Below, piece by piece: positions 12,775-43,605 of a stretch of 64,000 bases of DNA. Positions within the stretch are counted from its first letter, which is position 1; every line of letters starts with the position of its first letter. The notes beneath the pieces were generated by a model, which did not search any database, was not told the origin of the DNA, and saw only the letters and a program-made list of their open reading frames with translations. The position numbers and the translations under genes are program-made. Origin of the DNA: a virus; IMG/VR virus record IMGVR_UViG_3300005921_000006, positions 1 to 64,000 of that record. One strand, written 5' to 3'.

Positions 12775-13548
12775 CTAGTTCGGATTCCCGTACAGCACCG
12801 CTCCCCACGTTTGTGAGTTCGAGCTTGCCGCGAACACCGTAACCGTAGTGCCGGAAACGCTACAAGCTCCCGCCAGTGCGGTAGCGCCTTGCACCTGAAC
12901 TTGACAAATGGGCGTAACGTTAAACGCCGCCGCGAGGGTAAACGTACAGCTGGACGCGCCACTCATTGTGCAGGTTCCCAGCTTAATTACGCTTCCCCCC
13001 AATCCGCACACTAGCTGACCCAGCGTGTTAATGCCTAGGACGACGCTACCCGTGGAACACGAAGAAGCGTACACTCCGCCCGGTAGCAAGGTAGACGGTA
13101 GAGGCAGATTAATGAGCAGCACGGCGCTGGGGGAGGTGGGAACGTAAGTGTCGAAGTTGCAGACCCCCGCCGTACACCAGGAGCTATTCGTTTGCGGGTA
13201 GACGCACTGATAGCCCGAGTTCGACCCGCCCAAAACCTTTTGGCCAGAAGAATTAAACACCGTAACCTGGAAACAAATGTTTTGCGGTTGGGTAAGTAGA
13301 ACGTTAGCGACCAGGCAGGTGTTAGCGATAGCACCGTTGAGTACAGGGCACACCGTGGGCGCGAGTATCTGCTGCCCCCCACCGCCGGCCTGATAACTCA
13401 GCGACTGCTGGTTGGTACCTACGGCCTGGAACACAATCTGTCCGGCAGGGAGTTTGGTAGTGCCCTGGGCAATATTCGACGCCGTAACGGAAACAAAATT
13501 CTGCGCCCAGGCGGAACCGAGAAGCAACAGCCAGAGAAATTTTCGCAT
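12775..13548 (-). CDS. Exported fibre-like protein (N-domain plus shared C-domain)
   Basis: A 257-residue protein with a signal peptide (MRKFLWLLLLGSAWAQ, cleavage after AQ). The N-terminal domain (about 17-175; landmarks VTASNIAQG, CFQVTVFNSSG, CNFDTYVPTSP) is homologous to the N-terminus of the 15534 gene. The last 70 residues (ICQVQVQGATALAGACSVSG ... TWGAVLYGNPN) match the C-terminus of the 18991 gene. Position with the baseplate suggests a tail fibre or adsorption protein, but a Sec signal on a virion part is unusual. Many paired Cys would suit oxidising periplasmic folding. Confidence 0.65.
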   Translation of the reverse strand: MRKFLWLLLLGSAWAQNFVSVTASNIAQGTTKLPAGQIVFQAVGTNQQSLSYQAGGGGQQILAPTVCPVLNGAIANTCLVANVLLTQPQNICFQVTVFNSSGQKVLGGSNSGYQCVYPQTNSSWCTAGVCNFDTYVPTSPSAVLLINLPLPSTLLPGGVYASSCSTGSVVLGINTLGQLVCGLGGSVIKLGTCTMSGASSCTFTLAAAFNVTPICQVQVQGATALAGACSVSGTTVTVFAASSNSQTWGAVLYGNPN

Positions 13549-13551
13549 ACC

Positions 13552-15537
13552 TTATTGCGCCTGCGCCAGTCTGGGCATAATGCCGATCTGCATACTGTGC
13601 CCGGTAATGGTTACCTTCGGATTACCGTAAAGATCGAGATACGACAAATAACTGCTACCCACGGTGTGGGTGGAGAATGTGCACCCTGTCACGGGCGTGC
13701 CGTAACAGTACTGCACCGAGTCCCAAATCATCGCCGCCGCTACGCTATTCGGCAGCGTCAACGTACAGGTGTGTACTGTACCGGACACCGAACAAGTGCC
13801 GGGAACCGATCCAACCATCCAGTTATAAAGCTGCCCGTAAGCCACGTTCGCCGTCGTCGAGCCCATACCGTTGTACGTGGTACTCCAGTTATACCAGGCA
13901 TCGTTGCTCCAACCGTTAAAGAAAAACTCGATGTAATCACGAGCAATGTACCCAGCCTGCATATCGGGGTCCGTGTAACAGTCGGTCATGCCGGGGCAGC
14001 TCCATCCCCCCGAACCGAACCCATCCTCCGTATTATCCAGCGGCTTCGCCAGTTCCGCACTTTGTAAAATACCGTTAATTGCCTCCGTCGCCGTAGGCAC
14101 TACGGTTTCCGCCCCGCTCACGCCGGGTTTAACGTGAAAGTTAATTCCATCCGCCTGGGCCGCGCCCGCCGTTCCGCTTACGCAACTAGTAGCACCTAGC
14201 TGCCCCGAAGGGCCGCAAGTTCCTGCCGAAAGCGGCTGGCAGTAAAGAAAACATTTTGCTAACAAAGTAGTATCGTCATGATAGCTGGGCATTAGAATGG
14301 ACGCCGTGGTGTCAATAGGCCCGCTCAATCCCACGCTCGTCTGCACCTGGGAGCAAGTTTCGCCCGTTGCCGCAATCGTAAACGATCCGCCCTTTACGAT
14401 GCAGTACAAGTCCTGCTCCATGCGGATTAGCTGGTCGAAGCTGCCAATCCAGAAGTTCGTGCTATCCGGTTCGTTCCACGTCTCCCAATACGCCACGTGC
14501 GCGTGAGTACAGTTTACCGTTCCAGGGCAGTTCGCGCCGCCCGCCGCCCACGTACCCGTACCGGCGATGTAGCCCGCCTGATTTACGTGCCCGGCAATCG
14601 CCGCTATCCAGTGACGCCAGATAGAATCCGTACCGCTGCCGTTCGTAGCTACGTCGGTAGGCGGAGCACACTGTCCCGGCAGCTGTTGTGGCTGAATACT
14701 GCCGTTAGTAAAGCTGCTGCAAATATCCTGGGGCACGGCAGAGGGCGTAAAGATCGCCCCACTCGTTTGCCCCACCCAGGTTCCGCCCGCTGTCGCTGTA
14801 CCCATGTACTGCGCAATATTCAATACGCCGGAAGAGTAGCTTACGAACGTAGTAGAAACGCCCGAACCGGTCTGTAGTACCGTCTCGCTCGCCGTAAACG
14901 TTCCGCTTGTCAGCGTACCGTCCACGTACAGGTTCGTGTTGCTGCTGGCCCAGTTCGGAGTCCGCGCTAACCCGTATTGCGCAGTGTGGACGCTATTTTG
15001 CGTCATCAGGTTTAAAATCTCGTCCAGTTGCGTCCAGTTGTAGACGCCGAAAGCCGTATTGAGCCAGGGCCACTGTGCACCGACCGTATCCCAAATGCGT
15101 CCTTGGCCGTGATTAATCCCGACAGGGAAAGCCGTGCTCTGGTTGTAAGCAATCGCGAACGTTGGAGACGCGGGAATTGCCCCGCTACCAGAACCCGTAA
15201 ACACGGCGGTTAGGCTGGCCGTAGCCGTAATATTAAACGTGCAAGACCCAGTACCCGAACAGCCGCTGGCTCCGTCCGTTCCCGAGGACCACGCGAATCC
15301 ACTCCCTCCGGTAATCGTGGGGGTTAACGTAATCAATGCCCCTACTACGTACGTATGATTGCAGGTTCCGCCCGAAGAACTACAGTTAGAAATATAACCG
15401 TCCGCCGAACTGATGGACCCAGTGCCCGTGCCCGTGGGGGTTACCGTCAACACGGCGGTAGTCGTGGAGGTAGGAGACCCAAACGTAACTTGGGCTACCG
15501 CCGAACCGCACAACAACAAAAACAATAGCAATCTCAT
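13552..15537 (-). CDS. Exported glycoside hydrolase (clan A-like) with InlB-type repeat
   Basis: A 661-residue protein; ATG at 15537 overlaps the previous stop (ATGA) and opens a signal peptide (MRLLLFLLLCGSAVAQ). Residues about 28-115 match a divergent InlB/bacterial surface repeat (LTVTPTGTGTGSISS, CSGTGSCTFNITATASLTAV). A TIM-barrel hydrolase follows, with WETWNEP (Glu356, probable acid/base) and a GINHGQGRIWD start, as in GH39/GH5-type enzymes. Likely target: host surface or environmental polysaccharide. It may be exported by the infected cell or be a depolymerase. Confidence 0.7.
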   Translation of the reverse strand: MRLLLFLLLCGSAVAQVTFGSPTSTTTAVLTVTPTGTGTGSISSADGYISNCSSSGGTCNHTYVVGALITLTPTITGGSGFAWSSGTDGASGCSGTGSCTFNITATASLTAVFTGSGSGAIPASPTFAIAYNQSTAFPVGINHGQGRIWDTVGAQWPWLNTAFGVYNWTQLDEILNLMTQNSVHTAQYGLARTPNWASSNTNLYVDGTLTSGTFTASETVLQTGSGVSTTFVSYSSGVLNIAQYMGTATAGGTWVGQTSGAIFTPSAVPQDICSSFTNGSIQPQQLPGQCAPPTDVATNGSGTDSIWRHWIAAIAGHVNQAGYIAGTGTWAAGGANCPGTVNCTHAHVAYWETWNEPDSTNFWIGSFDQLIRMEQDLYCIVKGGSFTIAATGETCSQVQTSVGLSGPIDTTASILMPSYHDDTTLLAKCFLYCQPLSAGTCGPSGQLGATSCVSGTAGAAQADGINFHVKPGVSGAETVVPTATEAINGILQSAELAKPLDNTEDGFGSGGWSCPGMTDCYTDPDMQAGYIARDYIEFFFNGWSNDAWYNWSTTYNGMGSTTANVAYGQLYNWMVGSVPGTCSVSGTVHTCTLTLPNSVAAAMIWDSVQYCYGTPVTGCTFSTHTVGSSYLSYLDLYGNPKVTITGHSMQIGIMPRLAQAQ

Positions 15538-17210
15538 TGCAGCCTCAGTAGAGAAAAGTGGACATCGTATGTTCCGGTTCCCGTCGTACATGCCGTGTAG
15601 GCAGCGGATACGTCAATCGTAGCCGTGGCGGTATTCCAAAATGTATACACCGCGTTGGCATTCGAGGTGCCTGTTGTTGTGAAACTCAACGTTATAAGCG
15701 GATGAGTAACCGAGCCTTGGGAATCCGCATAGATTACTTTTGGAATTACGCTTCCCGCCGTCACGTTCGAGCACAGCGTGGGAACTTCGTTCGTGTACAG
15801 ACTTAACTGATACTGCCCGGTGGGAGCGTTCGTGTAAATTGCCGTGCTCCCGATGTTTCCCGTCTGCCCTGTCTGGTTCACCGATCCGACAACCAGCGGG
15901 ATCGCCCCAGTAAAAGTAGCGGAAGCCGTTCCCGCTACGGTGTCGCTATTTACAACGAAGTCGGAAAACGGGTTTCCATTGTAACTCAACTGGTAGCGGT
16001 TGTCACTGCCGTAACCCGTCTTTATCCACCCCGCCTGCGGGGAAGCTTGAATATAAGGAGTGGTTGTGCCCGATTGCATTGCGAATAGATCGCCGGTAGT
16101 CAGCTGGAGAGTAAGCGAGATGCCCGTGGCATTTTGAATATTCGGCGTGTTGAATATAGGCGAGTTGACTAGCGCAATAGCGCCCGTACCGCTCGTCCCG
16201 TTCGACAGGTTTCCCGCGTTGTCGAGATTCGTTAGAGCGCATTCGCTGAATTGCCCGTCCCAGTAGCACACGTGAGCGTTTCCATTTAGACTATTATTCA
16301 AAAGCCACGCGCTACCCGGTGGCAGCGTAGGACCGGGGTTGACGAATACGTTACCCAGCACCAACGAAGAAGTTGCTCCGCTTACCTGGAATAGCTGCTG
16401 CGTATTGCTGCCGTACGTATTATTCTGATTCGGGCATACCACCGTCGTGCAATTGGCGTAACCCTGCGCCTTTACCCACTGGCTGTTCACGATTAGTCCA
16501 GAATTATTACCCAGCGACGGCGTAGGCACCATAGGGGTGCCAGAAAACGTAGGGCTAACGAGAGGGGCCAGCGCGGTAAGCGCCGACTCTAAATCCGTTT
16601 GGTTCGCCAGCGTACCCGTAATCGCACCCCACACCGCGCCACCCCCGCCCGAGGCCGTAACACACTGCGCTACCCCCAGCGTGTTGTAACCGCCTACGGC
16701 GTACCCCGAGGGACACGTACTAGCGTAAATACCGCCCAGCGAATTGGCCTGGGGAGGGGGAAGGTACAGCACCAACACGGCGTTCGGAATCGTCGGATAG
16801 TAACTGTCGAAATCGCAAATAGAATTGGAGCACCAGGAGCTATATGCCACCGGCTGTACGCACTGATAAGGGCTACCCGGCCCGCCTAAGACTATGACGT
16901 TGGAACTATTCAGAATCGTTACCGCGAAACAAAAATTTTGCGGGCTGGCTACTGACACGTTCGCTACCGTGCAGGTGCCGTTAACTGCGCCGTTGGTAAT
17001 CGAGCATATCGTGGGGGAAGTGTAACTCGGCCCGGTAGCACCCAGCTGGTAAGAGATATTTTGTCCCGAGGAGTTTACGGCTTGAAACAAGATCGTACCC
17101 GCCGACAGCAGCCCGCTGGAGCCATTATGAATATTGGCGGCGGTTACGGTGACGGTGTTCTGGGAGAAAGCCGAAGCCGCAAAAAGTAGGAATAAAAGCA
17201 GTTTTCTCAT
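15534..17210 (-). CDS. Exported fibre-like protein, long paralogue
   Basis: A 558-residue protein with AGGAGCGTACG before ATG and a signal peptide (MRKLLLFLLFAASAFSQ). The N-domain (VTAANIHNG, CFAVTILNSSN, CDFDSYYPTIPN) is homologous to that of the 12775 gene, but the rest differs: a Ser/Thr/Gly/Asn-rich beta region typical of fibre shafts (LANQTDLESALTALAPLVSP, FSGTPMVPTPSLGNNS) and a distinct C-terminal domain (YDVHFSLLRLQ end). It overlaps both neighbours. Probable adsorption fibre or exported surface protein. Confidence 0.65.
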   Translation of the reverse strand: MRKLLLFLLFAASAFSQNTVTVTAANIHNGSSGLLSAGTILFQAVNSSGQNISYQLGATGPSYTSPTICSITNGAVNGTCTVANVSVASPQNFCFAVTILNSSNVIVLGGPGSPYQCVQPVAYSSWCSNSICDFDSYYPTIPNAVLVLYLPPPQANSLGGIYASTCPSGYAVGGYNTLGVAQCVTASGGGGAVWGAITGTLANQTDLESALTALAPLVSPTFSGTPMVPTPSLGNNSGLIVNSQWVKAQGYANCTTVVCPNQNNTYGSNTQQLFQVSGATSSLVLGNVFVNPGPTLPPGSAWLLNNSLNGNAHVCYWDGQFSECALTNLDNAGNLSNGTSGTGAIALVNSPIFNTPNIQNATGISLTLQLTTGDLFAMQSGTTTPYIQASPQAGWIKTGYGSDNRYQLSYNGNPFSDFVVNSDTVAGTASATFTGAIPLVVGSVNQTGQTGNIGSTAIYTNAPTGQYQLSLYTNEVPTLCSNVTAGSVIPKVIYADSQGSVTHPLITLSFTTTGTSNANAVYTFWNTATATIDVSAAYTACTTGTGTYDVHFSLLRLQ

Positions 17211-17527
17211 CGTACGCTCCTGTAGTGCTTCGCGCTCCAGGCGGCTCCAAAGCCGTGGCCTGCAATTTCGCCGAGCGTTAAAATCAGGCTCATTTTCTTG
17301 TGTCCTCGAATTTTCAGCTTCCTCTCAGCATACAGACTACCGGCCAGGTCTCCCGCGAAAAACGCGGAGAGTAGAACTGGGCCCCGAAGCACAAAAGGCC
17401 GCGCCACCGGGTCGTGCTCAACCGCCGTAGGAAAGCTCACGGTGTACTGCGTAGTCAAGGCATCCGCCCCCGTAGTGGCAACCTGTAGAGCACACAACCA
17501 TAGTGAACAATGAAGAACCGCTATCAT
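17207..17527 (-). CDS. Small membrane protein, 106 aa
   Basis: ATG at 17527 overlaps the previous stop (ATGA); longer in-frame starts lie inside the upstream gene. An N-terminal hydrophobic segment resembles a signal (MIAVLHCSLWLCALQVATTG). Further hydrophobic stretches (PVLLSAFFAGDLAGSLY, LILTLGEIAGHGFGA) suggest two more helices. I recall similar EHDPVARPFV-type proteins in soil bacteria and phages, with no known role. Confidence 0.55.
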   Translation of the reverse strand: MIAVLHCSLWLCALQVATTGADALTTQYTVSFPTAVEHDPVARPFVLRGPVLLSAFFAGDLAGSLYAERKLKIRGHKKMSLILTLGEIAGHGFGAAWSAKHYRSVR

Positions 17528-18132
17528 TTTCCGATAGCGAACCACTGCACTATGGCGGAGCCGGGTTCGTTGGTTACCAACATCTCCCAGCTGAAGCCTG
17601 TTGTGCTGGAAGTGGTCAACCCTAGAAAAGCTTCTACATCCGTAGGTGATAGGAAGCTGCCAGTAAAAGCTGTCAATTGAATGACAGGATTGAGCGTAAA
17701 AGCTTCCGTGAACGTAACCGCATTTGCCGCGTTTACCGGCCCGGAGGATTGCCCCCACTGTAGAATTAAACCTCCCAGCGCCGAGCCGAACTTTATATAG
17801 CCCGTATTTGCGGCGAACGAAGAGGCTACAATTAAGTCCGCGCCCGTAAGAACGTTATTGAGTACCGCTTCTAAAGCGGTTACCGCTGCATTAGAACTAG
17901 TATCAGCTACAAACGGAGTAGTACCGTCTGAAGTGTTGTAGCCTTTCCCTGACAACGATAAACAAAAAGCTCGAACAAATGTACTCGGTTGATAGAAAAG
18001 TTTGTTTGCCGTAGCACTGGGAAACACCGAGCCAGAAGGAGCGCCGCCTGTACGTTGAGTATCCGCCTGGTACGAAGCATCATCCTCTTGATTAGTTGCA
18101 GCAGGATTCCATTGACTGAAGTTTGTCGTCAT
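17524..18132 (-). CDS. Tail fibre protein with gp53-like C-terminal domain
   Basis: A 202-residue protein starting at ATG 18132. The C-terminal part (NTGYIKFGSALGGLILQWGQ, then VTFTEAFTLNPVIQLTAFTG) matches the common phage tail-fibre tip domain seen in gp53-like proteins. The N-terminal part is polar and may attach to the DUF2612-type protein encoded just upstream. Unlike its neighbours it has no signal peptide, so this is probably the genuine virion fibre. Confidence 0.7.
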   Translation of the reverse strand: MTTNFSQWNPAATNQEDDASYQADTQRTGGAPSGSVFPSATANKLFYQPSTFVRAFCLSLSGKGYNTSDGTTPFVADTSSNAAVTALEAVLNNVLTGADLIVASSFAANTGYIKFGSALGGLILQWGQSSGPVNAANAVTFTEAFTLNPVIQLTAFTGSFLSPTDVEAFLGLTTSSTTGFSWEMLVTNEPGSAIVQWFAIGK

Positions 18133-18136
18133 AGAG

Positions 18137-18991
18137 TTAGTTCCACTCTCCAATATCAAAACCCTGGACGAACACAGGGTTAGTATTATCGAATCCGAAG
18201 CTAGGCGTGGTAGAGTAGTTCGACGTATACGCCACGGCCTCAGGGCGGGGGATGATCAGGTCGTTAGCAATCATCTGCTGCTGAATTGAGCTGAAGTTCC
18301 CGACCAGCTTAATCGTACAGGTCATATTCTGGTTGTCGGTGATGTAGATGTAGCAACCGGGGAATAGCGTTTGCAACGGGAACCAAAGCGAATCTGCCTG
18401 CCCGTCCCACTGGTTCCAGATAATCCGTGCTCGAATCAGAGTCAAGTAATCTGCATCCGACAGGGTCGAGCTGGGAGCCGCGTTCGTTACCGACGAGTTT
18501 GTAACGTGAGTCAAGGTAAAGTTCGCCGTAAAGGAAACCCCGGTGACAATTGCAGTAGGCGTGACCGTTTCCGTATGGGAGTCCGACCCGGTTATCGTCT
18601 GCGGAACTCCTACGGACATGTAGTTCGTATTGTTGACGGTTACCGTGTGCACGCCCGTAGAAGTAATCGCCACCGTGGTCAGAGCACTTACTCCGACGGG
18701 AACGAACGGTAGCTGCCGACTGGCTCCGACTAACTGGCCGACGACATTGAGTTGATCTCCTACGGGCGCAGGAACGGCATTTACATCGTAAGCCGCGTTA
18801 ATCAACTGAGCACAAGCCAACGTGTCTAAAAACGGTTGTAGTAGCAACGCCAGGAACGCCCGCAAGTTCGGTGAGGCAGGGTTCTGATACTGACTGGTAA
18901 GCAGACCGAGGTAGTACGGCAGCGTAGGGCTAACACTTCCCCCTCCACCGTACCCGCCCGCTCCGTAACCGCCGCCGCCGTAGCCGCCCAT
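18137..18991 (-). CDS. DUF2612-type baseplate protein
   Basis: A 284-residue protein; ATG overlaps the previous stop as TAATG. After a Gly/Tyr-rich N-terminus (YGGGGYGAGGYGGGG) come the DUF2612 landmarks YYLGLLTSQYQ, NLRAFLALLLQPFLD, QLNVVGQLVGASRQLPF, LSDADYLTLIRARIIWNQWDG and ANDLIIPRPEAV. Between them is an inserted Thr/Val-rich beta segment (about 110-180). The family follows protein J in simple contractile baseplates and links the wedge to the fibre. Confidence 0.85.
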   Translation of the reverse strand: MGGYGGGGYGAGGYGGGGSVSPTLPYYLGLLTSQYQNPASPNLRAFLALLLQPFLDTLACAQLINAAYDVNAVPAPVGDQLNVVGQLVGASRQLPFVPVGVSALTTVAITSTGVHTVTVNNTNYMSVGVPQTITGSDSHTETVTPTAIVTGVSFTANFTLTHVTNSSVTNAAPSSTLSDADYLTLIRARIIWNQWDGQADSLWFPLQTLFPGCYIYITDNQNMTCTIKLVGNFSSIQQQMIANDLIIPRPEAVAYTSNYSTTPSFGFDNTNPVFVQGFDIGEWN

Positions 18992-19596
18992 TAGTTTGGA
19001 TTTCCAATTACCAACGCGGACCAATTTTGCGAATTAGCGGAAGCCGCCCCGATTGTAACCGTCGTTCCCGATACGGAGCACCCTCCCGCAATGACGCTCG
19101 AAGCACTTTGTTCCGTTACAATGCAAATAGGCTGAGTGTTATAGGCAGAAAGCAGAGTTATATTACAGGAAGAAGTTCCCCCCATGTTGCACGAACCGGC
19201 CCAGCTATTTGTTCCCGATTGGTTAAGGTGACCGGTTATAGAGCCTATGCTCGCCGCGCCACCTATCACCACAATACCCGTGAAAGCCGCCGTAGCGCCG
19301 TTAACTGCGCCTGTAGTTAAAAAGCCGCTCGCATCGACTGTACTCGAAAAAACTGCGTTTCCGCCCTGAATCTCTCCCGTAGTGGCAAAGCCTCCAGCCG
19401 CTACAGTGCCGGTAACATCTAAAGCTGGAATTGCGGCGTCCCCACTCAAATACTGATCCAACAAGGTAAAATTGGCGTTCATTTGAACGTTCCAATTCGT
19501 AGCGCCGTATGGGGGAGTACTCAGGCAGATGTTTGGCGTACACTGCGCCGCGAGAGAACCAACGAACAAAGCAAGAAAAGCCAGAATTTTATACAC
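18991..19596 (-). CDS. Exported fibre-like protein, short
   Basis: A 201-residue protein starting at GTG, overlapping the J gene. It has a signal peptide (MYKILAFLALFVGSLAAQ). The middle contains fibre-like alternations (GDAAIPALDVTGTVAAGGFA, TTGEIQGGNAVFSSTVDASG). The last 70 residues (SCNMGGTSSCNITLLSAYN ... VSGTTVTIGAASANSQNW) are homologous to the C-domain of the 12775 gene. It sits between J and DUF2612 genes, a place normally held by structural baseplate genes. Confidence 0.65.
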   Translation of the reverse strand: MYKILAFLALFVGSLAAQCTPNICLSTPPYGATNWNVQMNANFTLLDQYLSGDAAIPALDVTGTVAAGGFATTGEIQGGNAVFSSTVDASGFLTTGAVNGATAAFTGIVVIGGAASIGSITGHLNQSGTNSWAGSCNMGGTSSCNITLLSAYNTQPICIVTEQSASSVIAGGCSVSGTTVTIGAASANSQNWSALVIGNPN

Positions 19597-20803
19597 TGTT
19601 CACCGTAATGTTTCCGACCACGCACTGCGCAGCCTGATAAAAGTTAAGTTGAATGTCCGTACTCGTTGACGGACTGGAAGTCTCCTCGAAGTAGAACGGA
19701 TTGCGAATAGAAATCTGAGCGCCCGCGCCAGTCTGCGCAGCTAGGATCATGTCGCCAAAACTCACCACGCCACCAATAGCCAGGCCTTCGAGATACGCAA
19801 TAATCGCGTCCTGAATTGCCAGCACCTGCGCCGCGCTTAAAGACCCACCGGAAGGCAACAAATGAGCGTTGACAATCACGTAGATCGTTACGTACACGGG
19901 AGGCTGGATAAAGCCAATTGTAGTAACCAGCCCGGAGTTCGGCGAAGTTACAGCTACCGACTGCGTTTGCGAAATAGGAGACCCGCTTACGTCGCCATTC
20001 GTGAGCACGCCCAGCCCACGATTGTTGTAAATCGCCGTAGCTACAGCCAGCGCCATGCCGCCTTCTACCACGCACGTAATGGAGTGACCGGGGTTGCCGT
20101 AGCTGTCCGTAGTGCCCGTGTCATTTTCCAGCACATTATTGCGCGTAACCCCCGCCGTAGCTTCGATAGCCGCAACCGTCGCGTCCAGCGGAGTCAGTGA
20201 CGGCAGCGCAACACTTTGTTGCTGCCGCAACCGCAACTGTGCGTCTGTTTCTACCGGGTCACCTAGCACGGCCACGTTCGACCCGTTCGTTACGCTGGTC
20301 CAGCCTGCCGTGGGCGAAGCAATACCCGTAAGCTGGTTCGCCGTAGCGTTAATAGCTCCAGCAACCTGGGCCGTAGCGGTAACCGAAACCGTTCCACCAC
20401 CGCCAATCGTCACCGTGGCGGGCAGATTCCATAGATCGCCGGTCACTACATTTTGAATCACGCCATTCGTAATTACCGCGCCGGGGGTGCCTGTAAGAGT
20501 AACCGTACAGGTGGAATTCGTGGCTGCTTTGCGGGTAAGACCGTTAATTGCAACAATAGCGTCCAGGCCCGCGCCTACGGCGAACGCGGGGGACATGTTG
20601 TTAAATACCTGCTGTAATCCCGCGTTGGTGTCCGCCGCCGCCAAAGCGATAATGGACATCAGCTGATAAGGAGCGGAGTCGTCCCCAAGATATGAATTTT
20701 GACCGTATACTGAAAGAAAGCCTTGCGTATAAAACCCAAGGATGTCTTCGTAACTGGGAATCGACAACCCCGAGGAGCTAATAGCGGGCGCGGTGTAGCT
20801 CAT
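19589..20803 (-). CDS. Baseplate J-like protein
   Basis: A 404-residue protein. Recognised by the gp47/J pattern: IPSYEDILGFYTQGFLSVYG, DSAPYQLMSIIALAAADTNA, FNNMSPAFAVGAGLDAIVAI, NGLTRKAATNSTCTVTLTGTPG, DPVETDAQLRLRQQQSVALP and VRNNVLEN-like text (VTRNNVLENDTG). It forms the main wedge of the baseplate. ATGA overlap with the gp25-like gene. Confidence 0.92.
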   Translation of the reverse strand: MSYTAPAISSSGLSIPSYEDILGFYTQGFLSVYGQNSYLGDDSAPYQLMSIIALAAADTNAGLQQVFNNMSPAFAVGAGLDAIVAINGLTRKAATNSTCTVTLTGTPGAVITNGVIQNVVTGDLWNLPATVTIGGGGTVSVTATAQVAGAINATANQLTGIASPTAGWTSVTNGSNVAVLGDPVETDAQLRLRQQQSVALPSLTPLDATVAAIEATAGVTRNNVLENDTGTTDSYGNPGHSITCVVEGGMALAVATAIYNNRGLGVLTNGDVSGSPISQTQSVAVTSPNSGLVTTIGFIQPPVYVTIYVIVNAHLLPSGGSLSAAQVLAIQDAIIAYLEGLAIGGVVSFGDMILAAQTGAGAQISIRNPFYFEETSSPSTSTDIQLNFYQAAQCVVGNITVNSV

Positions 20804-21192
20804 TGCGGCAAGGCTCCCGAAAGTGGCTGAGGATAACTAACGGACACCGTACCGAACGTAGTGTTCACCACGGCGGAGTACAAATAGGCCCGTGTCTGAG
20901 GCAGGTAAGTCGTCTGTACGTTGGACAGCCCAATCACGAACGGAGTTCCTAGGATAACGGCGGAAATCAAATTAGCGATCTGCTGTTGCGCGTGAGGGCT
21001 GGCGGATTGTCCGAGAATCGACTGCCACAGTGGAAGTCCGTCGTTCGTATTCTCCCACCATTCGCCGGCATTTAACTTGAGACGGGTAAGTATAGCTTGC
21101 GCTACCGCATCTACGTCGGTAAGCTGGGCGGAATAGTCCCACACCGGATCGCCGTTTACCAGCTGCACGTAAAGTATCGCAGGAGTGCTCAC
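20800..21192 (-). CDS. Baseplate wedge protein, gp25/GPW-like
   Basis: A 130-residue protein. The core VAQAILTRLKLNAGEWWENT followed by GLPLWQSILGQ is the usual pattern of gp25-type wedge proteins, and the C-terminus gives a beta-rich end (YLYSAVVNTTFGTVSVSYP). It couples to the sheath and to J during baseplate assembly. Gene order spike, gp25, J supports it. ATGA overlaps on both sides. Confidence 0.88.
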   Translation of the reverse strand: MSTPAILYVQLVNGDPVWDYSAQLTDVDAVAQAILTRLKLNAGEWWENTNDGLPLWQSILGQSASPHAQQQIANLISAVILGTPFVIGLSNVQTTYLPQTRAYLYSAVVNTTFGTVSVSYPQPLSGALPQ

Positions 21193-23291: not shown

Positions 23292-23293
23292 AG

Positions 23294-35227: not shown

Positions 35228-38080
35228 TTATTGAATCCTCGCACCGTTTAACAGTTGCGCCCCGTTGCTAATAGAAGCAGCCGTTGCGCCCGAACTCGAA
35301 GTCACTGTGAAGGTCGTAGTAGCCCCGGTGCTGTTGTCGGTAACGGTAATCGTGCATGCCGCGGAGCCGGTTGTCAGCGTAGCCGTAGCCGAGGTGTTAG
35401 AAACCACGGTCGGCGTAGTCAAGCTCTCGCCCGAGCAGCCCGCGCCGCTCACGCTGAATAAGCCGCTTGGCGTCTCCTGAGTCCAAACCGTATTACCACC
35501 CGTCAATGCGATGCCAGGCGTCGTACTGATATTGCCGAAATTTGGAGAGATGGCCAGCGTTGCCGTCGCTACCGTGATTGGACTTGTGATCGAATCCGTC
35601 GTGTCCGCAATAGTGCAGGTGCCTGTACTGCCGCCAGTTGTCACCGTCACCGTCTGGCTGGTGCTGCTCGTATTCGACGTGCTCACATAGGTGCATGCCC
35701 CGCTCGCGCTGAACGCCGTGCTACCGTTCCACCCAGTACCGACGCCGGTACACGACAGATTGATGTGGCCAGAGTGGTTTGCCGGAACCGTGGAGGGGGA
35801 GCAGGTGAAAGAGGCTCCGCTGCTGGAATCAGTCTCGTACACCCGTTCATCGAACTGGCGCACGTCGGGCCACAGCATTGTTCCCGTACAAGCGCCGGGA
35901 TTCGAGGCCAGTGAGTAGGTGACCGTTGTCGTGGTCGCATAAGTCATCTGGACTTTTGCGCCCGTCGCCGTACCTGCCCCGCTTGTCGCGCAGTTGCCAC
36001 CGTTAATCTGGAAATCACCCATAAGGCGAGCATCTGTATAGATTGTGGAGATACCTGAAACGGTAAGAATCTCACACGGAGCTGGCGCGGGCGAGCAAGT
36101 TCCAGAAGAATTTGACCAACTCCCGCCTGTGATGGTGTACGAGTTCTGCTGTGTTGTATCTATCGGGAGAGTTTGCCACGCAATTGATGCTGGGTTGTCG
36201 TAACAATAACCACTAACCTCATTACCTCCCGTCACGTCAGGCCCACAAGTTGGGAAGGGAGGCGTACTTGTGGTGCCGCCGCAGACGCCCGTGGAAGCAT
36301 TAAACCCGGCGTTGCAGACCTTCCACCAAGAGAGGCCGGTGCCTCCGCTCGGAAAGAATCCCATGCTGTCCATGAAGAACGAAGCTGGAGCGGTCGTGCC
36401 GTTGCTCGGGACGGCGTTCTCGAACGGAGCAGCATTTCCTGACATACTGGTTGGGACTTCAGCCGAGTTCTTCTGGACCGAAGCATTCACGCTGTCGTAG
36501 TTCAGCCAGCGCATGAAACTGGAGGACGCAAGGGCGTCGGTGCCTTGCTTGTTTAAGATGAAAATATTTCCGTTCGAAGTCCCGGAATACGATGTACATT
36601 GGCCAGTCCCGCCCAACACGTTCGCAATAGCGTTGTCGAAGCGGTGGAAGGCGTCGACTTGAATAGCGATTCCTTTAACAAGGCCGAATGTGAAAGGAAT
36701 TGAGTCGCAGGCGTACCAGTTGCGGAACCACGTATTGACATCGCCAGTACCCCAAGTATCGTCGTCGTCCGTTCCGTCGCCTTGATTTCCTTCCAGCAGA
36801 TTGAGGGCAACTCCGGACGCTTGGCTATCGTGTTGATACGGCGCGGACGGGAATGGATTCTGGTTGTTGTTATTTCGATTGAAGTTGTAGGCGATCACGT
36901 CACCGAGTTGAGACCCTGCCCCCTCGACCAAGATGGCGAACTCTTCGATGTTGTTGAGAAATAAGTCGTCGGAACCTTCAACGGCCTGCATTGCCGAGAC
37001 GCTGGAAGTCGGAGTCGCGGGCGTCATGGTGAAAAAGTAGTTATTGAAAACCAGGTCGTTCTTCCCAAAATCTGGCCATAGAATCTGTCGATTCGCGGTC
37101 GCCCCGATGAACCGATTACCTTTGATCCAGGAGGCATATGCTGGACCTTGAATGTCAATGTTGCCGCCGCCAGAAAACACGATGGTCATGTCTTCCAGTC
37201 CGATGCCATATCCCACGTCTGATTGCTGCTGCCAGTACATCGATGCTGTGTTCGAAGTTGACCAGTTGTTAAGATAGAGGCCGGGACTGAAGCCAATGGT
37301 GTAGGAACCGCCGCCGTTGTTCGTAACCGAAGTGATATTTACATATTGAAACTGAGAAGTCTGGCCACCACCACCGGACCCTGAGCCATTTGAGTTGCAT
37401 ATCGTATTTCCGCCGCAGACGAAAAGGCCGCCGTTGTCGGAGTAAGAACCGGTCGTGCAGGTGTTGTAGCCGTTTGATGCGCTGGTACTCCCGCTGTAAC
37501 CCGTGTCGCACTGGTTGAACCATCCAATATTACCGACCGTAGGTGTCGTGCCGGAGACAGATGTCAGCGTAACCGAGGTAGTTCCAGATGCGGGGCTCGT
37601 GCTTACCGTTCCGCCTCCTTTGCCGCCACCTTGACCAAATTGCAGAGAAGCGGTCAGGGTGAGCGTTGTATTCATCGCTCCCGCGCCGCGCAGAGTGACA
37701 TATGGTGCGGTATTAAGAAATTCAGTCGTCCCAATACTGAAAGAACCGGAAGCCAAGAGCAGATAGGACCCGGAAGTATTAGCAGCAGAACAATTATTCA
37801 TCGCCGTCAGGATCGAGGCGAAGGACGTACCAGAAGCTACAGGAACGGTGATCCCGGCCTGGGCCGTCGTGCAGGCTGGTCGAGTCGGAGGCGCCCACGG
37901 GTTTGCAGTTGTCTCACCGTCTGGAAACGTGGCAGGTAGTCCAGCAGCACCCCAATCAATTGCCCGAGACGGACAAATGAGGTTCTTCCACGGCGCGGTC
38001 CCGCTCCCGAGCGTGCAGGCTTGCCCAAACCCCGCCGTAGAAAAAAAGATGGCAACGACAATAAAAATTAGTTTTCGCAT
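35228..38080 (-). CDS. Exported beta-helix protein with Ig-like C-terminal domains
   Basis: A 950-residue protein starting at ATG 38080 (MRKLIFIVVAIFFSTAGFGQ, signal peptide). Residues about 80-600 read like a right-handed parallel beta-helix (SSAANTSGSYLLLASGS-type strands, YVTLRGAGAMNTTLTLTA, GIGLEDMTIVFSGGGNIDI, WIKGNRFIGATANRQILW, DLVFNNYFF). The C-terminal 230 residues are Ig-like/BACON-like repeats with paired Cys. The style is that of soil Acidobacteriota surface proteins. Carbohydrate binding or lyase activity is possible, but no catalytic residues are evident. Confidence 0.65.
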   Translation of the reverse strand: MRKLIFIVVAIFFSTAGFGQACTLGSGTAPWKNLICPSRAIDWGAAGLPATFPDGETTANPWAPPTRPACTTAQAGITVPVASGTSFASILTAMNNCSAANTSGSYLLLASGSFSIGTTEFLNTAPYVTLRGAGAMNTTLTLTASLQFGQGGGKGGGTVSTSPASGTTSVTLTSVSGTTPTVGNIGWFNQCDTGYSGSTSASNGYNTCTTGSYSDNGGLFVCGGNTICNSNGSGSGGGGQTSQFQYVNITSVTNNGGGSYTIGFSPGLYLNNWSTSNTASMYWQQQSDVGYGIGLEDMTIVFSGGGNIDIQGPAYASWIKGNRFIGATANRQILWPDFGKNDLVFNNYFFTMTPATPTSSVSAMQAVEGSDDLFLNNIEEFAILVEGAGSQLGDVIAYNFNRNNNNQNPFPSAPYQHDSQASGVALNLLEGNQGDGTDDDDTWGTGDVNTWFRNWYACDSIPFTFGLVKGIAIQVDAFHRFDNAIANVLGGTGQCTSYSGTSNGNIFILNKQGTDALASSSFMRWLNYDSVNASVQKNSAEVPTSMSGNAAPFENAVPSNGTTAPASFFMDSMGFFPSGGTGLSWWKVCNAGFNASTGVCGGTTSTPPFPTCGPDVTGGNEVSGYCYDNPASIAWQTLPIDTTQQNSYTITGGSWSNSSGTCSPAPAPCEILTVSGISTIYTDARLMGDFQINGGNCATSGAGTATGAKVQMTYATTTTVTYSLASNPGACTGTMLWPDVRQFDERVYETDSSSGASFTCSPSTVPANHSGHINLSCTGVGTGWNGSTAFSASGACTYVSTSNTSSTSQTVTVTTGGSTGTCTIADTTDSITSPITVATATLAISPNFGNISTTPGIALTGGNTVWTQETPSGLFSVSGAGCSGESLTTPTVVSNTSATATLTTGSAACTITVTDNSTGATTTFTVTSSSGATAASISNGAQLLNGARIQ

Positions 38081-38082
38081 GG

Positions 38083-38850
38083 TCAAGAATGCAGGAAGCA
38101 CGCAATCGCAGAACCCCAATGGGAAGATGTCGTCCACGACCACGTAGGATTGACTGCCGTGGTCAATGTCGTTATCAGGTAAGCATCTGCCGGAGCCGTG
38201 CTCGACCCATCATCCACTAGAGTAAAACCACTGTTGATAGCTGGGTTGGTGGTAGCGCTACCCGTCTGCAGCGCGGTGACCACCACTTCACCGCTTGCCT
38301 GACTCAAGGAACCGCTGGACGGGCACGCTCCGGGCTGTCCTGACGTTACGAATCCGTCTTCAACGCCATTTTGTCCGTTCGTCTCTAGCGGACTTGTGGT
38401 GTTTGTTCCAGAAAAGGTCATACCGAATAAATCACCATTTGTGTTCGACTCGGTAAAAGTATGCCCGGTTCCCACGACCAGCGATCCGCCTCCAGTCTTG
38501 GCGTAGGCATAGAAAATTTGCACATCGTAAGTTGTAACTGGAGTCAGAGCGTTCCAGGCGTTGCACGGAGAGGCACAACTGGGCGAAGTCACGGCATCGC
38601 TAATCGTAACCCCCGTTGCACCCGTGACGATAGCGATTAGCAGGGTTGAGCCTGTCGTAGTCATGGAAACCACGCCGCTACCGAATCCGGGCGTATAGTC
38701 GTGCGTGACGAACGCTCCTGTTCCGCCAGTTCCGCCCGCGAACACCGTCGTCTTCGGCGGAAGCGTCGTCTTCGGCAGAATCGTCGTGCCGGCCTGCCCC
38801 CAGAGAGAGGCGCACAAGAGAAACTGGGAAAGATAGCGAATGGTTTTCAT
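38083..38850 (-). CDS. Exported beta-rich protein
   Basis: A 255-residue protein from ATG 38850 (MKTIRYLSQFLLCASLWGQ, signal peptide). Beta-sandwich-like text (GVVSMTTTGSTLLIAIVTGA, TTYDVQIFYAYAKTGGGSLV) ends WSWTTSSHWGSAIACFLHS. I recall this type as a repeated lectin-like or adhesin-like domain of soil bacteria and their phages. It is packed two bases from the beta-helix gene, so the two are probably made together. Confidence 0.6.
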   Translation of the reverse strand: MKTIRYLSQFLLCASLWGQAGTTILPKTTLPPKTTVFAGGTGGTGAFVTHDYTPGFGSGVVSMTTTGSTLLIAIVTGATGVTISDAVTSPSCASPCNAWNALTPVTTYDVQIFYAYAKTGGGSLVVGTGHTFTESNTNGDLFGMTFSGTNTTSPLETNGQNGVEDGFVTSGQPGACPSSGSLSQASGEVVVTALQTGSATTNPAINSGFTLVDDGSSTAPADAYLITTLTTAVNPTWSWTTSSHWGSAIACFLHS

Positions 38851-38851
38851 G

Positions 38852-41800
38852 TTAGTAAAGAGTACACGTTGAGCCTGCGTTGATTTGGGCATCCCCGGAT
38901 GTTCCGGCGGTGCCGTAAATGACGAACGTTCCGCTTGTCGCGCTGCCAGTAAACGACCCGGATGCCTGCCACGGATACCCGGTCGCGGTTGCAGCGGCCG
39001 CAGCTCCAGTAAGTGTGGTTACAGCCGTCGTTCCCGTATTCGTGATAGGCCCAGCGGATGTTTGAGTTCCCGCATTGGTGCTCCAGATGATTGCATTGTG
39101 GTTGCTGACAGTCGGAGACTGCGTGAACTGTGTTCCGAGAAGTAACGTGACTGCAACGCTCGCTGACTCCCACGTCCCTTGGCACTGGTATGCCCACGTC
39201 TTAGCCGTAGCCGGAAGCGTCCAGCTACAGATCGTCGTCGTCGTGTTCATGATAATGAGGGACGTGATCTTGCAGGCGTCCGCGACATTGAGCAGCGTGT
39301 TCATATTCAGAAACGGAGTTGTGCCGCCCGTCGTAATCTCAGGAGCCGTGCCGCCAAGGACCATATTCGGCCCCAGTGCGAAAGAGTTCGACGCTTGACT
39401 TGCTAACGCAAATTGCGACGTGCTGCTGGCCTGAAGGTCGATCAGTTTTGAGCCAGAACCGCTGGCCGTGTTCGTGATGTTCTCGAAGATTCCCGCGTCC
39501 ACCACGCCCGTTGTATTCCACGTCCCCGTTTCGTTGAAGAACGGGGTTGTATTCGCAGCGGCGACAGTTCCACCAGTGACTTCAAATTGCCCCGGAGCCC
39601 CCGCCGTACCAGTACCGCCCGCGCTACCGAGAGTAAATACGACGTTACCGCCGCGTCCGGTCGTACTGCCCGAAGTCGCTGCACCGCCGGTTCCTGTCGT
39701 AACGAGAAAGTCCGATCCCGCACCGCCCGTACCGGACGTAGAGCCGCCCGCGCCGCCTGCTGCACCTGCAATCGTATACGTACCAGCCGCGCCGCCCGCG
39801 CCTGTAGCCGCGCCCTGAGTTCCAGCACCAGGAGTCAATGAGAACGCGCCACCCACACCACCTGTGTTCGTGGTCGTCCCACCGTGAGCACCACCAGCAC
39901 CGAGCGTTACGTTAAACGCTCCACCAGTTCCGCCGTTACCCGTCGTGGCGCCACCAGCCGATCCAGCCCCGGTGATCAGGGTAATTGGAGCGCCGGTCAA
40001 CCCGTTGATCGAAGCTGAAGCCGCGCCTCCCGCAGCCGCCGCGCTAATGTTAAGCACCGCTGGAGCATTTGTAGCCGCCGGCCCCGCCGCGCCCTGCGTG
40101 ATTTGCAGCGGGATTGACGTTGAAGTGGTCAGAGTAGAGATTTGCGCCTCTACGTCCGTTGTCCCCGTCGCTGCAGTCGTTTCTCCGACCGTGAATGCCG
40201 CTTGCGAGTTTGTTGTCTGCGCGAAATTCAGAGTGACTGGAAGGTTCCCAAGAACGCTCGCGGCTCCAAGCGCGCAACTCCAATCTGTCGTGACGTTGAT
40301 AATATCTGCGCACGATCTGGTCGAGTTACCGTATAAACCGGAAGTCGCTGAGACCCCTGTATAGGCCGTGCCATTAGCGAATACGACGCCACCTCCAGTT
40401 CCGGTCGTGGGCGTAGGGGCGCTCGCCCCAAACGTCATCTCGCCAGTTGGCAGAATCTGAGCCACGACGGTTTGCCCTGAAAGAACACCGGAAGAATAAC
40501 TGCCGCCAGTGCCCCATTGCGTTAGCGCGGCCTGAGTCGTTGCGCCGTTAATGTTCTCGGTAACCTGCCCAGTCGACGTTCCTGGGGTCGTTACTCCGAG
40601 CGCGAATGGCGTATTGTTGTTACTTGAATCCGTGTTCTGAATCACGATCGGCGTGGAAAGGTTCGCCGTCACTGTGCCTGTGAGTTGCGTTCCCCCAACC
40701 ACGGCGGGAAGCTTTACCGACGCCGCACCAGTCGCTGCGCTTGCATCGAAGAGGCCAGCCGCTGCCGCTGTCAGTGTCGTCGCTGAAGCCGTCCAATCCG
40801 TGACGCACCCGAAAGCTCCAGCATTGTCGTATTGCAGCGAGTTCGCCGTCGTCGTGCACGGCGTTCCGCCGCCGCTAGCCGCGATTGTCACACCATTGGT
40901 TGCCGGCGTCAGTGTGATATTCGTTCCAGCAACCAGTGGCGGTGTGCCCCAGAAATTCCCGCTACTGTCAGCCGTGAAATAAATTGGCTGGTCTTTAATG
41001 AGCACCGGAATCGAAGTCGCTCCGTTGAAATTCTTCGAGTTGAGTGAGACCGTCGCGGTTGTCGTACCGACCGAAACCACGCCGCCAGTGTAGCCCGCCA
41101 CCGCGCTGCCATTGAATGTGTACGCGCAGGCCGATGTGCAGTTCATTACGATCAAACTGCCTGAGTCGGCAGTTGAGTTCCCGGTGTAGGCTCCCGTCTC
41201 CGTCAACTCCCCGGTGATCAGTTCGCCAGCGAATGTCTTAGCCCCAGTGAATGTCAGAGCGTTTGCCGCCGCGTCGACACTACCGTAATCCGTGGTCCCA
41301 TTGATCAGGTCGAGCGCGTGGTTTGTCGAGTTACAGTAGAGGCCATCGACCGTGGACACCCCTGTGAACGCCGTGCCTTCGGCGCACGCCATTCCGCCAC
41401 CGGTTCCAAGTGTCGGAGTCGGCGCACCCGCACCAAATAATCCTTCTCCCGTATTGCTGAAGTTTACTTCGGTCACGCCATTGTTGTTGAAATTAGCAAG
41501 CCCTGCAGATGTGCCGGAAGGATTGTTTACAATCAATCCCACCTGAGTCGTAGAAGTAGGCGAAATTGTCGCTCCTTCCGTAAACGCCCACACTACTCCA
41601 TTGTCCGTAGCGTGACCCGTACCCGGAGCTGTGCCCGCCCCACCCCATAGTATGGGGGCGTTCGCCGTACCTGCGCCTGAAGAAGACTCCTGCGTCGTAG
41701 AACTAAAATAGGGTATTCCACCCGACGTCACCGTGCCCGACACCGTAAGCGGAAAGGAACCACCGCCCACAGTTACAAAACTACAAGATGAAATATTACT

Positions 41801-43084
41801 GGAAGGAGTACCGCATTCTAGTGATTGAGTTCCGCTTGGCCCCGTGATAGGAAGTTGATACCAAGTAGCCGTAAAACTCGCAGAATTAGGACCAATGAAC
41901 CCAGCCGTATTTGCTATAGGTGTAAGCGTTCCCGTATTACCCGGCAAAACCACCGCTCCGGGATTCGACCCAACCGCGCCCGCCGCCACGGGACCGGGAA
42001 AATTTGCCGTCGTAAGGCCTGTTGCACTACCCGTGTGGGTAAAGTTAAACGAGTTCGCCGCATCGGTTCCCGTGCCGGGTACAAACTGCAACGCCAAGCA
42101 GCCTTCTACCGACGCGGAAGCGTGCCACTCTGTACCGCACAAGGAATTGATAGGGCTGGACTGGCTTGTCCCAACTAACGCAGCAGTATTATTTTTCCAC
42201 GCGAAGAACTGACTTACTCCAGTAGTCGTGGTAAAGATAGAAGTATTCGCGCCGTTCGCAATCGAAAGGTTACCGCTGGGCGCGGCGTTGTTGTTCCACA
42301 GATAACCGGTGGTATTGGTTAACGTCCCGCTCGCGGGAGTGCCCAAATTCGGAAGAGTTAAAGTTACACCACTAGGCAGCGACAGCGTACAGGTTCCGGT
42401 CGTGGTGATCGTACACGTACCGGAGGCGGTAATCTGGTTCGCGGTTCCCGCCACCACCGCGCTCGTTACTGTACCCGTACCCGCCGAACTAAAAGCCCAC
42501 GCGCTACCCGTCCAGTTTAAAAATCCCGTGGACAAACTAGGCAGCGCGTTGCTTAAAAGTCCAACCACTTCCTGGGAGCTGGATGTGCCAGAAAGATCGC
42601 CCCCCGGCGTAAACGACCCACCACCACCCGTATGGCTATTCGCCGTACTAATCAGCGGATTAATCGTAACACTGGGTGTCGTACCGCCCGTCAACGTCGC
42701 CAGAAAAACGAAAACTCCGTAAGGCTTAGTAAAAGTAACCCCACGATTCGTTTTCGTCGTAGACGTATTACTGTCCGCCACCGTATCGCATGTAGGAGCC
42801 ACGGTGATCGTGCCGCGCATACAGCCGTACACATTCACGGTTACCCCAGTGGGCGAACCAATGGGAATTTCCTCGAACGTAGCGCCGTAAGCCCCGTAAG
42901 TGTTAGGGATTACCCCACACACTCCCGCCGCCGCCGTGGGGGTAGCCCCTATGCAGGTAGCCGCTACCGTAGCCGAAAGCGTGGGGCTGGATACGGTAAT
43001 CGTTTGAACCGGCGTAGACTGCACCTGGGCGTGACCAGGAACGCAAAGCGCTGCGATGAGCGCCAGGTACCAGAAATGTTTCAT
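38852..43084 (-). CDS. Giant exported fibre/adhesin-like protein, 1410 aa
   Basis: Starts at ATG 43084 after AGGAGGGTT, with a signal peptide (MKHFWYLALIAALCVPGHAQ). It is a very long, Gly/Thr/Ser/Asn-rich, strand-repeat protein. An internal module (GAGAPTPTLGTGGGMACAEG at about 41.4 kb) recurs (GASAPTPTTGTGGGVVFANG at about 40.4 kb). A Gly-rich stretch at about 39.58-39.98 kb (GGTGGAFNVTLGAGGAHGG and similar) may form a glycine-rich helix bundle. The C-terminal about 150 residues form a compact domain with paired Cys. Likely an adhesin or fibre. The part left of about 41.4 kb uses codons unlike the rest, suggesting a chimera. Confidence 0.65.
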   Translation of the reverse strand: MKHFWYLALIAALCVPGHAQVQSTPVQTITVSSPTLSATVAATCIGATPTAAAGVCGVIPNTYGAYGATFEEIPIGSPTGVTVNVYGCMRGTITVAPTCDTVADSNTSTTKTNRGVTFTKPYGVFVFLATLTGGTTPSVTINPLISTANSHTGGGGSFTPGGDLSGTSSSQEVVGLLSNALPSLSTGFLNWTGSAWAFSSAGTGTVTSAVVAGTANQITASGTCTITTTGTCTLSLPSGVTLTLPNLGTPASGTLTNTTGYLWNNNAAPSGNLSIANGANTSIFTTTTGVSQFFAWKNNTAALVGTSQSSPINSLCGTEWHASASVEGCLALQFVPGTGTDAANSFNFTHTGSATGLTTANFPGPVAAGAVGSNPGAVVLPGNTGTLTPIANTAGFIGPNSASFTATWYQLPITGPSGTQSLECGTPSSNISSCSFVTVGGGSFPLTVSGTVTSGGIPYFSSTTQESSSGAGTANAPILWGGAGTAPGTGHATDNGVVWAFTEGATISPTSTTQVGLIVNNPSGTSAGLANFNNNGVTEVNFSNTGEGLFGAGAPTPTLGTGGGMACAEGTAFTGVSTVDGLYCNSTNHALDLINGTTDYGSVDAAANALTFTGAKTFAGELITGELTETGAYTGNSTADSGSLIVMNCTSACAYTFNGSAVAGYTGGVVSVGTTTATVSLNSKNFNGATSIPVLIKDQPIYFTADSSGNFWGTPPLVAGTNITLTPATNGVTIAASGGGTPCTTTANSLQYDNAGAFGCVTDWTASATTLTAAAAGLFDASAATGAASVKLPAVVGGTQLTGTVTANLSTPIVIQNTDSSNNNTPFALGVTTPGTSTGQVTENINGATTQAALTQWGTGGSYSSGVLSGQTVVAQILPTGEMTFGASAPTPTTGTGGGVVFANGTAYTGVSATSGLYGNSTRSCADIINVTTDWSCALGAASVLGNLPVTLNFAQTTNSQAAFTVGETTAATGTTDVEAQISTLTTSTSIPLQITQGAAGPAATNAPAVLNISAAAAGGAASASINGLTGAPITLITGAGSAGGATTGNGGTGGAFNVTLGAGGAHGGTTTNTGGVGGAFSLTPGAGTQGAATGAGGAAGTYTIAGAAGGAGGSTSGTGGAGSDFLVTTGTGGAATSGSTTGRGGNVVFTLGSAGGTGTAGAPGQFEVTGGTVAAANTTPFFNETGTWNTTGVVDAGIFENITNTASGSGSKLIDLQASSTSQFALASQASNSFALGPNMVLGGTAPEITTGGTTPFLNMNTLLNVADACKITSLIIMNTTTTICSWTLPATAKTWAYQCQGTWESASVAVTLLLGTQFTQSPTVSNHNAIIWSTNAGTQTSAGPITNTGTTAVTTLTGAAAAATATGYPWQASGSFTGSATSGTFVIYGTAGTSGDAQINAGSTCTLY

Positions 43085-43095
43085 AACCCTCCTTT

Positions 43096-43605
43096 CTAGT
43101 ACAAAGCCTGGACGTAAGTTACGTAACCTTCCACGCCGGTAATCGATCCCCCCGTTACCAGGCAAAGCTGCTGACTAACCGGCGTTCGGACGCTGGTGTC
43201 GGTAGACCCGTTACTGGTAAAAATAGTGGTGGTGGGAATCGCCATCGCTCCGGTCAGCGCCGTAGCTCCGGTGTCGCAAGCCGTGGACGCGGTAGTTCCG
43301 TACTCGAACTGGATGGTAGGGTTGGTACCAACTACGGTCAGTTGCCACTTACAAACCGTAATATAGTCGCTGGTTACCGCGCTTACCAGGTTCGTAGTGG
43401 TGGCCGAAGTAACCGCCACCGACGCCGAGGTTTTCGTAATCGAAGGATTTTGACAAGGATCGCTGCCAACCGCAGCCGTTTGGAACAGGCTCAGCCCGCT
43501 CGGCCCTGCCGCTAAGAGATGTTGCTCGGGAGCAATCATCACCATAAGAGCCAGAACCAAAATCGCCGCTACACCGAACATCAAAACGTTCACTGACTTT
43601 TTCAT
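43096..43605 (-). CDS. Exported protein, 169 aa
   Basis: Starts at ATG 43605 after AGGAGGCGGC. An N-terminal hydrophobic helix with Lys (MKKSVNVLMFGVAAILVLAL) acts as signal or anchor. The rest is a beta-rich domain (VCKWQLTVVGTNPTIQFEYG, TSVRTPVSQQLCLVTGGSIT, GYVTYVQALY) with four Cys. It has the look of a secreted capping or surface protein. It heads the exported block in transcription order. Confidence 0.6.
   Translation of the reverse strand: MKKSVNVLMFGVAAILVLALMVMIAPEQHLLAAGPSGLSLFQTAAVGSDPCQNPSITKTSASVAVTSATTTNLVSAVTSDYITVCKWQLTVVGTNPTIQFEYGTTASTACDTGATALTGAMAIPTTTIFTSNGSTDTSVRTPVSQQLCLVTGGSITGVEGYVTYVQALY

Follow-up and report, generated by a model that had tools for sequence, protein, structure and literature searches.

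The virions of tailed phages are understood to be completed in the cytoplasm. Free soluble phage depolymerases, which are tailspike-type enzymes released at lysis and working away from the virion, are usually made in the cytoplasm without a signal peptide, unlike the proteins considered here. Export of tail fibres is not a wholly new idea, as single signal-peptide fibres have already been noted in annotation: Bcep43 gp48 and Bcep781 gp49 are both labelled 'possible tail fiber; possible signal peptide domain'. No study of exported tail fibres was found in openly searchable papers, subscription literature aside. In this work, we analysed a group of signal-peptide proteins encoded among the virion genes of a soil phage, IMG/VR record IMGVR_UViG_3300005921_000006, using the first 64 kb of this 73,221-bp virus record (positions 1 to 64,000, hereafter the window); genes are named by their lower coordinate, and compared sequences carry labels such as L016. 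According to the PHROG matches (sheath, baseplate J, gpI-like, hub, major capsid protein, head protease, gpF-like, and portal), the window comes from a contractile-tailed phage, and all of its matched head and tail genes lie on the minus strand. Its signal-peptide fibres have their closest named relatives in Terriglobales, including a prophage of Silvibacterium bohemicum S15, and the host is therefore likely to belong to Acidobacteriota. As judged from the sequences, the fibre- and spike-type proteins of this phage are very probably exported and oxidised.

The first-pass annotation of the window claimed that nine of its genes begin with Sec-type signal or anchor segments, mostly ending at a glutamine. 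A Sec signal was defined here as a positive n-region, an 8-residue h-region with a mean Kyte-Doolittle value of at least 2, and small residues at positions -3 and -1. Eight of the nine genes pass this rule, and the exception, 17207, encodes a small membrane protein. The preference for glutamine was borne out as well, since it occupies position +1 in seven of the eight predicted signals: AWA/QN (12775), AVA/QV (13552), AFS/QN (15534), LAA/QC (18991), GFG/QA (35228), LWG/QA (38083), and GHA/QV (38852), where the slash marks the predicted cut. The N-terminus of 43096 is anchor-like (MKKSVNVLMFGVAAILVLALMVMIA). Between 17524 and 50893, no other head or tail gene passes the rule, which is passed by 4 of 98 mechanical overlapping open reading frames and also by membrane-protein genes to the left of the fibres (10835, 11182, and 12286). 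A shared C-terminal sorting signal was looked for, and the C-termini were found to differ among the proteins.

The N-terminal domain of 12775, 15534, and L002_13201, here named FDN, allowed the same feature to be surveyed in related phages, as the first-pass annotation had proposed. Profile scans of viral contigs and genomes, with a narrower profile that found Silvibacterium bohemicum, yielded 41 non-redundant FDN domains in phage contigs and Terriglobales genomes, with profile matches in 38 of 397 Terriglobales genomes. A signal peptide precedes 35 of the 41 domains, each with the n-h-c pattern and a cleavage site usually followed by glutamine, and the remaining six stand at the protein start (L030, L054/L081, L056/L079, L057/L080, L062/L082, and L063/L083); in L030, the intergenic space is too short for a hidden signal peptide. 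On a maximum-likelihood tree of FDN, the signal label changes about two times, and the signal-bearing state looks ancestral with the root placed by midpoint only. The N-terminal domain of these fibres is conserved while the C-terminal part is variable, as expected for a virion anchor. The AlphaFold model of FDN is all beta (pLDDT about 90); a Foldseek search with it gave no PDB match at E <=0.001 and weak viral matches, mostly to tail fibres or uncharacterised proteins.

Exported disulfide proteins tend toward even cysteine numbers, and this criterion has been used previously (PMC7678975). In the window, mature cysteine counts are even in all eight signal proteins (Table 1), which contain 2.46 cysteines per 100 aa. 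In 25 core structural proteins, the density is 0.81, and the count is odd in 12 of them. Even counts were also found in 22 of 23 full-length signal-bearing FDN proteins and in 11 of 12 signal-peptide proteins of Bcep43, BcepC6B, PBR31, L003, and the cultured phages Tunturi 1 and Tunturi 4. When pooled, with the two window FDN proteins counted once, 39 of 41 signal-peptide proteins are even versus 12 of 29 signal-less fibre or tail proteins with non-zero cysteine (Fisher p 7e-7, an optimistic value because the compared proteins are related). Within FDN, the cysteines form four co-varying pairs that are gained and lost in pairs, two of the four never being split, and at least one complete pair is present in 33 of 35 signal-bearing domains versus none of six signal-less ones. 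The signal-peptide proteins thus carry an apparent signature of oxidative folding, namely even and co-varying cysteines. As a negative control, predicted exported Silvibacterium proteins have an even count in 18 of 35 cases and only 0.35 cysteines per 100 aa; therefore, neither the method nor the host secretome yields the pattern. VKOR and DsbA are present in Silvibacterium bohemicum, the host of the closest prophage. The paired and even cysteines make export look real and not only predicted, and the export of fibre-like proteins proposed in the first-pass annotation is well supported by signals conserved in divergent phages, paired cysteine changes, and even counts. On the Silvibacterium bohemicum chromosome (L102-L121), predicted exported proteins are cysteine-poor despite VKOR and DsbA, unlike the cysteine-rich phage proteins.

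A fibre nature is indicated for 15534, which matches PHROG tail protein phrog_25379 (7.9e-6) and contains a shaft repeat also found in the Enterobacter phage Mulvp2 tail fibre. Matches to many PHROG tail-fibre families were also obtained with the signal-bearing relatives, some of which contain collagen or GDSL-hydrolase domains. A C-terminal tip is common to the signal-peptide proteins L003_13630, BcepC6B gp19, and PBR31 orf35, and the same tip ends ordinary T7-type fibres in Peat1 and KpV74. Shaft repeats, collagen, or tip domains are thus found in 15534 and relatives, and they are weak or absent in 13552, 35228, 38083, and 43096. The nine genes gave no Pfam match at E 0.1 and one significant PHROG match only; single-protein and A2-profile scans of viral contigs found no relatives of 38852 or of the tip of 12775 and 18991, and tblastn against INPHARED with 15534, 43096, 18991, and 35228 gave no matches. 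The protein 13552 is a putative exported glycosidase: the motifs WNEPD and NTE.GF, expected of a GH-A glycosidase, are invariant in it and in its L016 homologue (47% identical), which has a sub-threshold Pfam match to Glyco_hydro_39 (E 0.15). The AlphaFold model of 13552 has a pLDDT of 28.

The genes 12775, 15534, 18991, and their relatives are located in tail modules, while those from 35228 to 43605 lie among head genes. In the contractile group, the usual order is baseplate J, a signal-peptide gene (in the window, L015, and L018), gpI, a short signal-less fibre, and a signal-peptide FDN fibre. The relatives of the 18991 N-terminal region, L018_4739 and L015_1805, are likewise placed between gpJ and gpI; the latter (L015 1805-2497) has a possible lipobox (VTTGC) and may be a lipoprotein. 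In siphovirus-type prophages, the FDN fibre directly follows the tape-measure gene and precedes the distal tail genes; the occupant of this slot is signal-bearing in L043 and L085 and signal-less in L030, L080, and L081. The arrangement of the head-region genes is also conserved, as L097 encodes, one after another, portal, gpF, a homologue of 43096 at the corresponding position (63% identity), and a 38852 homologue with a signal peptide (54% over 300 aa), with the N-terminal signals kept. In L016, the 13552 homologue sits between two FDN genes as in the window.

We tentatively prefer, as the best explanation of the whole, that these proteins undergo Sec export and oxidation, after which the fibre class joins the virion at lysis and the enzyme-like members are secreted. 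Late in infection, a cleavable signal peptide would send the proteins to the periplasm via host Sec, a step that we regard as well supported by the predicted signals. Signal peptidase would then cut the signal, so that the FDN N-terminus of 12775 and 15534 would begin where the signal-less fibres of the family begin, and the host VKOR/DsbA system would join the cysteines; these two steps are suggested by the coinciding N-termini, by the paired cysteines, and by the host having both enzymes. At lysis, the exported pool would meet the virions, whereupon 12775, 15534, 18991, and probably 38852 may attach via the conserved N-terminal domain, and enzyme- or adhesin-like members (13552, perhaps 35228) may act as free secreted proteins. 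The mature N-terminus of a signal-bearing FDN fibre coincides with the start of the signal-less fibres that occupy this slot elsewhere, and the N-terminal domain is the conserved part; both would be most simply explained if the exported fibre still attached to tails, which would be possible only at or after lysis. That at least one exported protein joins the virion in this way is plausible, if some way from assured. The first-pass annotation had left the fate after export between display or secretion by the infected cell and joining the virion after lysis: the slot and N-terminal domain that signal-bearing and signal-less versions of the fibre class have in common point to joining at lysis, while secretion fits 13552 and Tunturi 1 gp17, and a mixture of free enzyme-like proteins and virion-attached fibre-like proteins is likely.

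Several observations weigh against this explanation. The phage also encodes a signal-less fibre (17524), eight or more exported appendages would be many for one virion, and part of the set resembles free enzymes or adhesins. The literature yielded neither a tail-fibre precedent for assembly after lysis nor virion proteomics of any signal-peptide fibre; the virion proteomics of JC1 (Burkholderia) and AXL1 (Stenotrophomonas) cover fibres without signal peptides, which consequently serve as controls only. The whole-protein cysteine count is also even in five of six signal-less FDN proteins. Signal loss amounts to only one or two events on the FDN tree, so the cysteine contrast with signal-less domains represents one or two data points, and independent-contrast tests on this tree were not significant, with too few events.

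The same features might instead belong to proteins that are exported and never enter the virion, acting in secreted form or at the surface as factors that bind receptors and degrade glycans, with release at lysis or earlier. By masking receptors or stripping glycans, they would keep progeny from sticking to debris and from re-infecting the dying cell. This explanation, which we consider somewhat doubtful yet serious, predicts signal peptides and even cysteine counts equally, and it readily accommodates the enzyme- or adhesin-like 13552 and Tunturi 1 gp17 (beta-helix, CHB_HEX_C, and Ig-like domains), the GDSL hydrolase domains of some signal-bearing fibres, the additional signal-less fibre, and the many signal-peptide proteins per genome. 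However, FDN is also the N-terminus of signal-less, non-exportable proteins in the same tail slot, which are presumably virion fibres, and the genes overlap and are built into the tail operon, in some cases even separating gpJ from gpI. In addition, every large fibre/spike-like gene that Tunturi 1 has from tail gene gp11 to its lysis genes is signal-bearing, which leaves hardly any candidate for a separate receptor-binding protein in this phage.

It is improbable that the N-termini only mimic signals and serve as hydrophobic plugs or virion anchors, left uncleaved in a virion assembled in the cytoplasm. The signal prediction is rule-based and accepts a few mechanical reading frames, but the conservation of the complete signal and cleavage site across the FDN proteins, the abundant, paired, and even cysteines that are unexpected in cytoplasmic proteins, and the signal-less relatives that lack both the hydrophobic segment and the cysteine pairs all argue for true export. 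Equally improbable is that these are cargo or moron genes, in which host-derived secreted proteins would serve lysogens or infected cells outside the mechanics of infection. A similar A/Q cleavage context occurs in 21 of 49 predicted exported host proteins, and some of the Ig-like and CHB_HEX_C domains are of a kind usual in proteins that bacteria secrete; nevertheless, the genes are co-directional and overlapping inside head and tail operons, their order is kept in independent phages (portal-gpF-43096-38852 in L097, FDN-13552-like-FDN in L016), they are several times richer in cysteine than the exported proteins of the host, and tail-fibre repeats and tips are present.

Other known classes of exported phage proteins were considered and rejected. 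Superinfection-exclusion lipoproteins of the Llp/Cor type do not correspond to the window proteins, whose cleavage sites are of the signal peptidase I type and whose length is mostly 200-1400 aa. Signal-arrest-release endolysins were rejected because cleavage sites are predicted and no lysis-domain match was found in Pfam/PHROG scans.

The signal-peptide genes and their neighbours are listed in Table 1. Four of the listed open reading frames (13552, 35228, 38083, and 38852) begin upstream of the true gene, and the likely starts are given in the table; a strong ribosome site (aaaggagg) precedes that of 38852.

Table 1. Signal-peptide genes and neighbouring genes in the window (SP, signal peptide; a slash marks the predicted cleavage site).
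Coordinates	Strand	Likely start	Product and features	Mature Cys
12775..13548	-		Signal-peptide fibre protein: SP MRKFLWLLLLGSAWA/Q, FDN, C-terminal tip common to 18991	12
13552..15537	-	ATG 15537	Signal-peptide protein, putative exported glycosidase	20
15534..17210	-		Signal-peptide tail-fibre protein: SP MRKLLLFLLFAASAFS/Q, FDN, tail-fibre shaft repeat	14
17207..17527	-	near 17527	Small membrane protein, ~106 aa; fails signal rule; relatives in L002 and L017	
17524..18132	-		Conventional short tail fibre, signal-less; phrog_1396 tail fiber, 4.8e-10; 1 Cys	
18137..18991	-		gpI-like baseplate protein; phrog_587; ATG overlaps stop of 18991	
18991..19596	-		Signal-peptide fibre protein between baseplate J and gpI; tip common to 12775	6
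19589..20803	-		Baseplate J-like wedge protein, syntenic anchor; phrog_6, 3.9e-54	
35228..38080	-	ATG 38080	Signal-peptide protein, possibly beta-helix spike	24
38083..38850	-	ATG 38850	Signal-peptide protein	4
38852..43084	-	ATG 43084	Large signal-peptide fibre-like protein	22
43096..43605	-		Signal/anchor protein adjoining head morphogenesis gene	4

Some further features were noticed in the window and the compared contigs. A putative exported glycosidase lies between two FDN fibres at 13552-15537 of the window and at 10955-13282 of L016. In the phage contig L002, an apparent papain-like cysteine protease gene (19864-20655, recognised by eye) adjoins a signal-peptide protein gene. Hexapeptide-like repeats of the left-handed beta-helix type (GNGVTLGNYVTL and DARVYGNARVYG) are present at both record ends, at window positions 564-1103 and at L006 12972-13221, corresponding to record positions 72972-73221.

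In openly searchable papers, we did not find descriptions of the breadth of this feature in Acidobacteriota phages, of paired-cysteine evidence for export, or of signal-bearing and signal-less pairs in one slot. It is possible, and we put it forward with some reserve, that they represent a second morphogenesis route, in which fibres are exported, oxidised, stored in the periplasm apart from the tail in the cytoplasm, and added to virions only at lysis, and which would be widespread in Acidobacteriota phages and of independent origin in Burkholderia and Xanthomonas phages. Periplasmic maturation of fibres would place part of virion assembly outside the cell, would make phage infectivity depend on disulfide enzymes as host factors, and would open extracellular-type folds to receptor-binding proteins. 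If the proteins are secreted non-virion factors instead, phages of an abundant soil phylum would release many glycan-active proteins per lysis. The cultured Tunturi phages allow both readings to be tested.

Among known systems, the Naesvirus proteins Bcep781 gp49 and Bcep43 gp48 resemble the window proteins in having a signal peptide (MKKNKHVLFGVLLTACGLPAFA/Q) on a tail-region, tail-fibre-annotated protein with 14 mature cysteines, but each is a single gene with an unrelated fibre body. Bcep43 gp48 (L007 3757-3780) is annotated as two joined pieces, and its start codon is followed by an A run that exceeds that of Bcep781 (L122 252-300) by one base; the signal peptide of Bcep781 is intact there, and the extra A may reflect sequencing error, slippage, or phase variation. 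In BcepC6B gp19 and Xanthomonas phage PBR31 orf35, a signal peptide likewise directly precedes a tail-fibre body; the gene lies between tailspike and holin, and its tip is common to the Peat1, KpV74, and Mulvp2 fibres. Unlike the window phage, these phages are podoviral and infect other hosts, and the proteins contain few cysteines (4 and 2). The signal-less FDN fibres share the N-terminal domain of the window fibres and, in L030, L080, and L081, follow the tape measure as the signal-bearing fibre of L043 does, whereas they have no signal peptide and no complete cysteine pair in the domain.

The cultured Acidobacteriota phages Tunturi 1 and Tunturi 4 (PMC11924767) are similar to the window phage in bearing signal peptides on fibre/spike-type genes, with even cysteine counts in seven of eight; virion proteomics is not reported in the passages of that paper that were searched. 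Signal peptides were found in gp12, gp13, gp14 ('tail spike'), gp16, and gp17 ('virion structural') of Tunturi 1, and in gp113 ('tail protein'), gp114, and gp111 ('tail fiber') of Tunturi 4. The annotated start of gp111 (30433; L100 30076-33171) lies downstream of an in-frame signal peptide and of a fibre motif common to gp113, and so leaves both out. The motif NVGxFGxAT...KGxxT of tail genes in other phages becomes NVGxCGDATHV..DAKGRATxC in gp111 and gp113, which looks like a standard fibre motif supplied with an extra cysteine pair. The last 54 residues of Tunturi 1 gp12 match a Silvibacterium prophage fibre (65%), and gp13 has 134 residues in common with 38852 of the window (43%). Unlike the window phage, Tunturi 1 and Tunturi 4 have no FDN domain, and they are a podovirus and a siphovirus, respectively.

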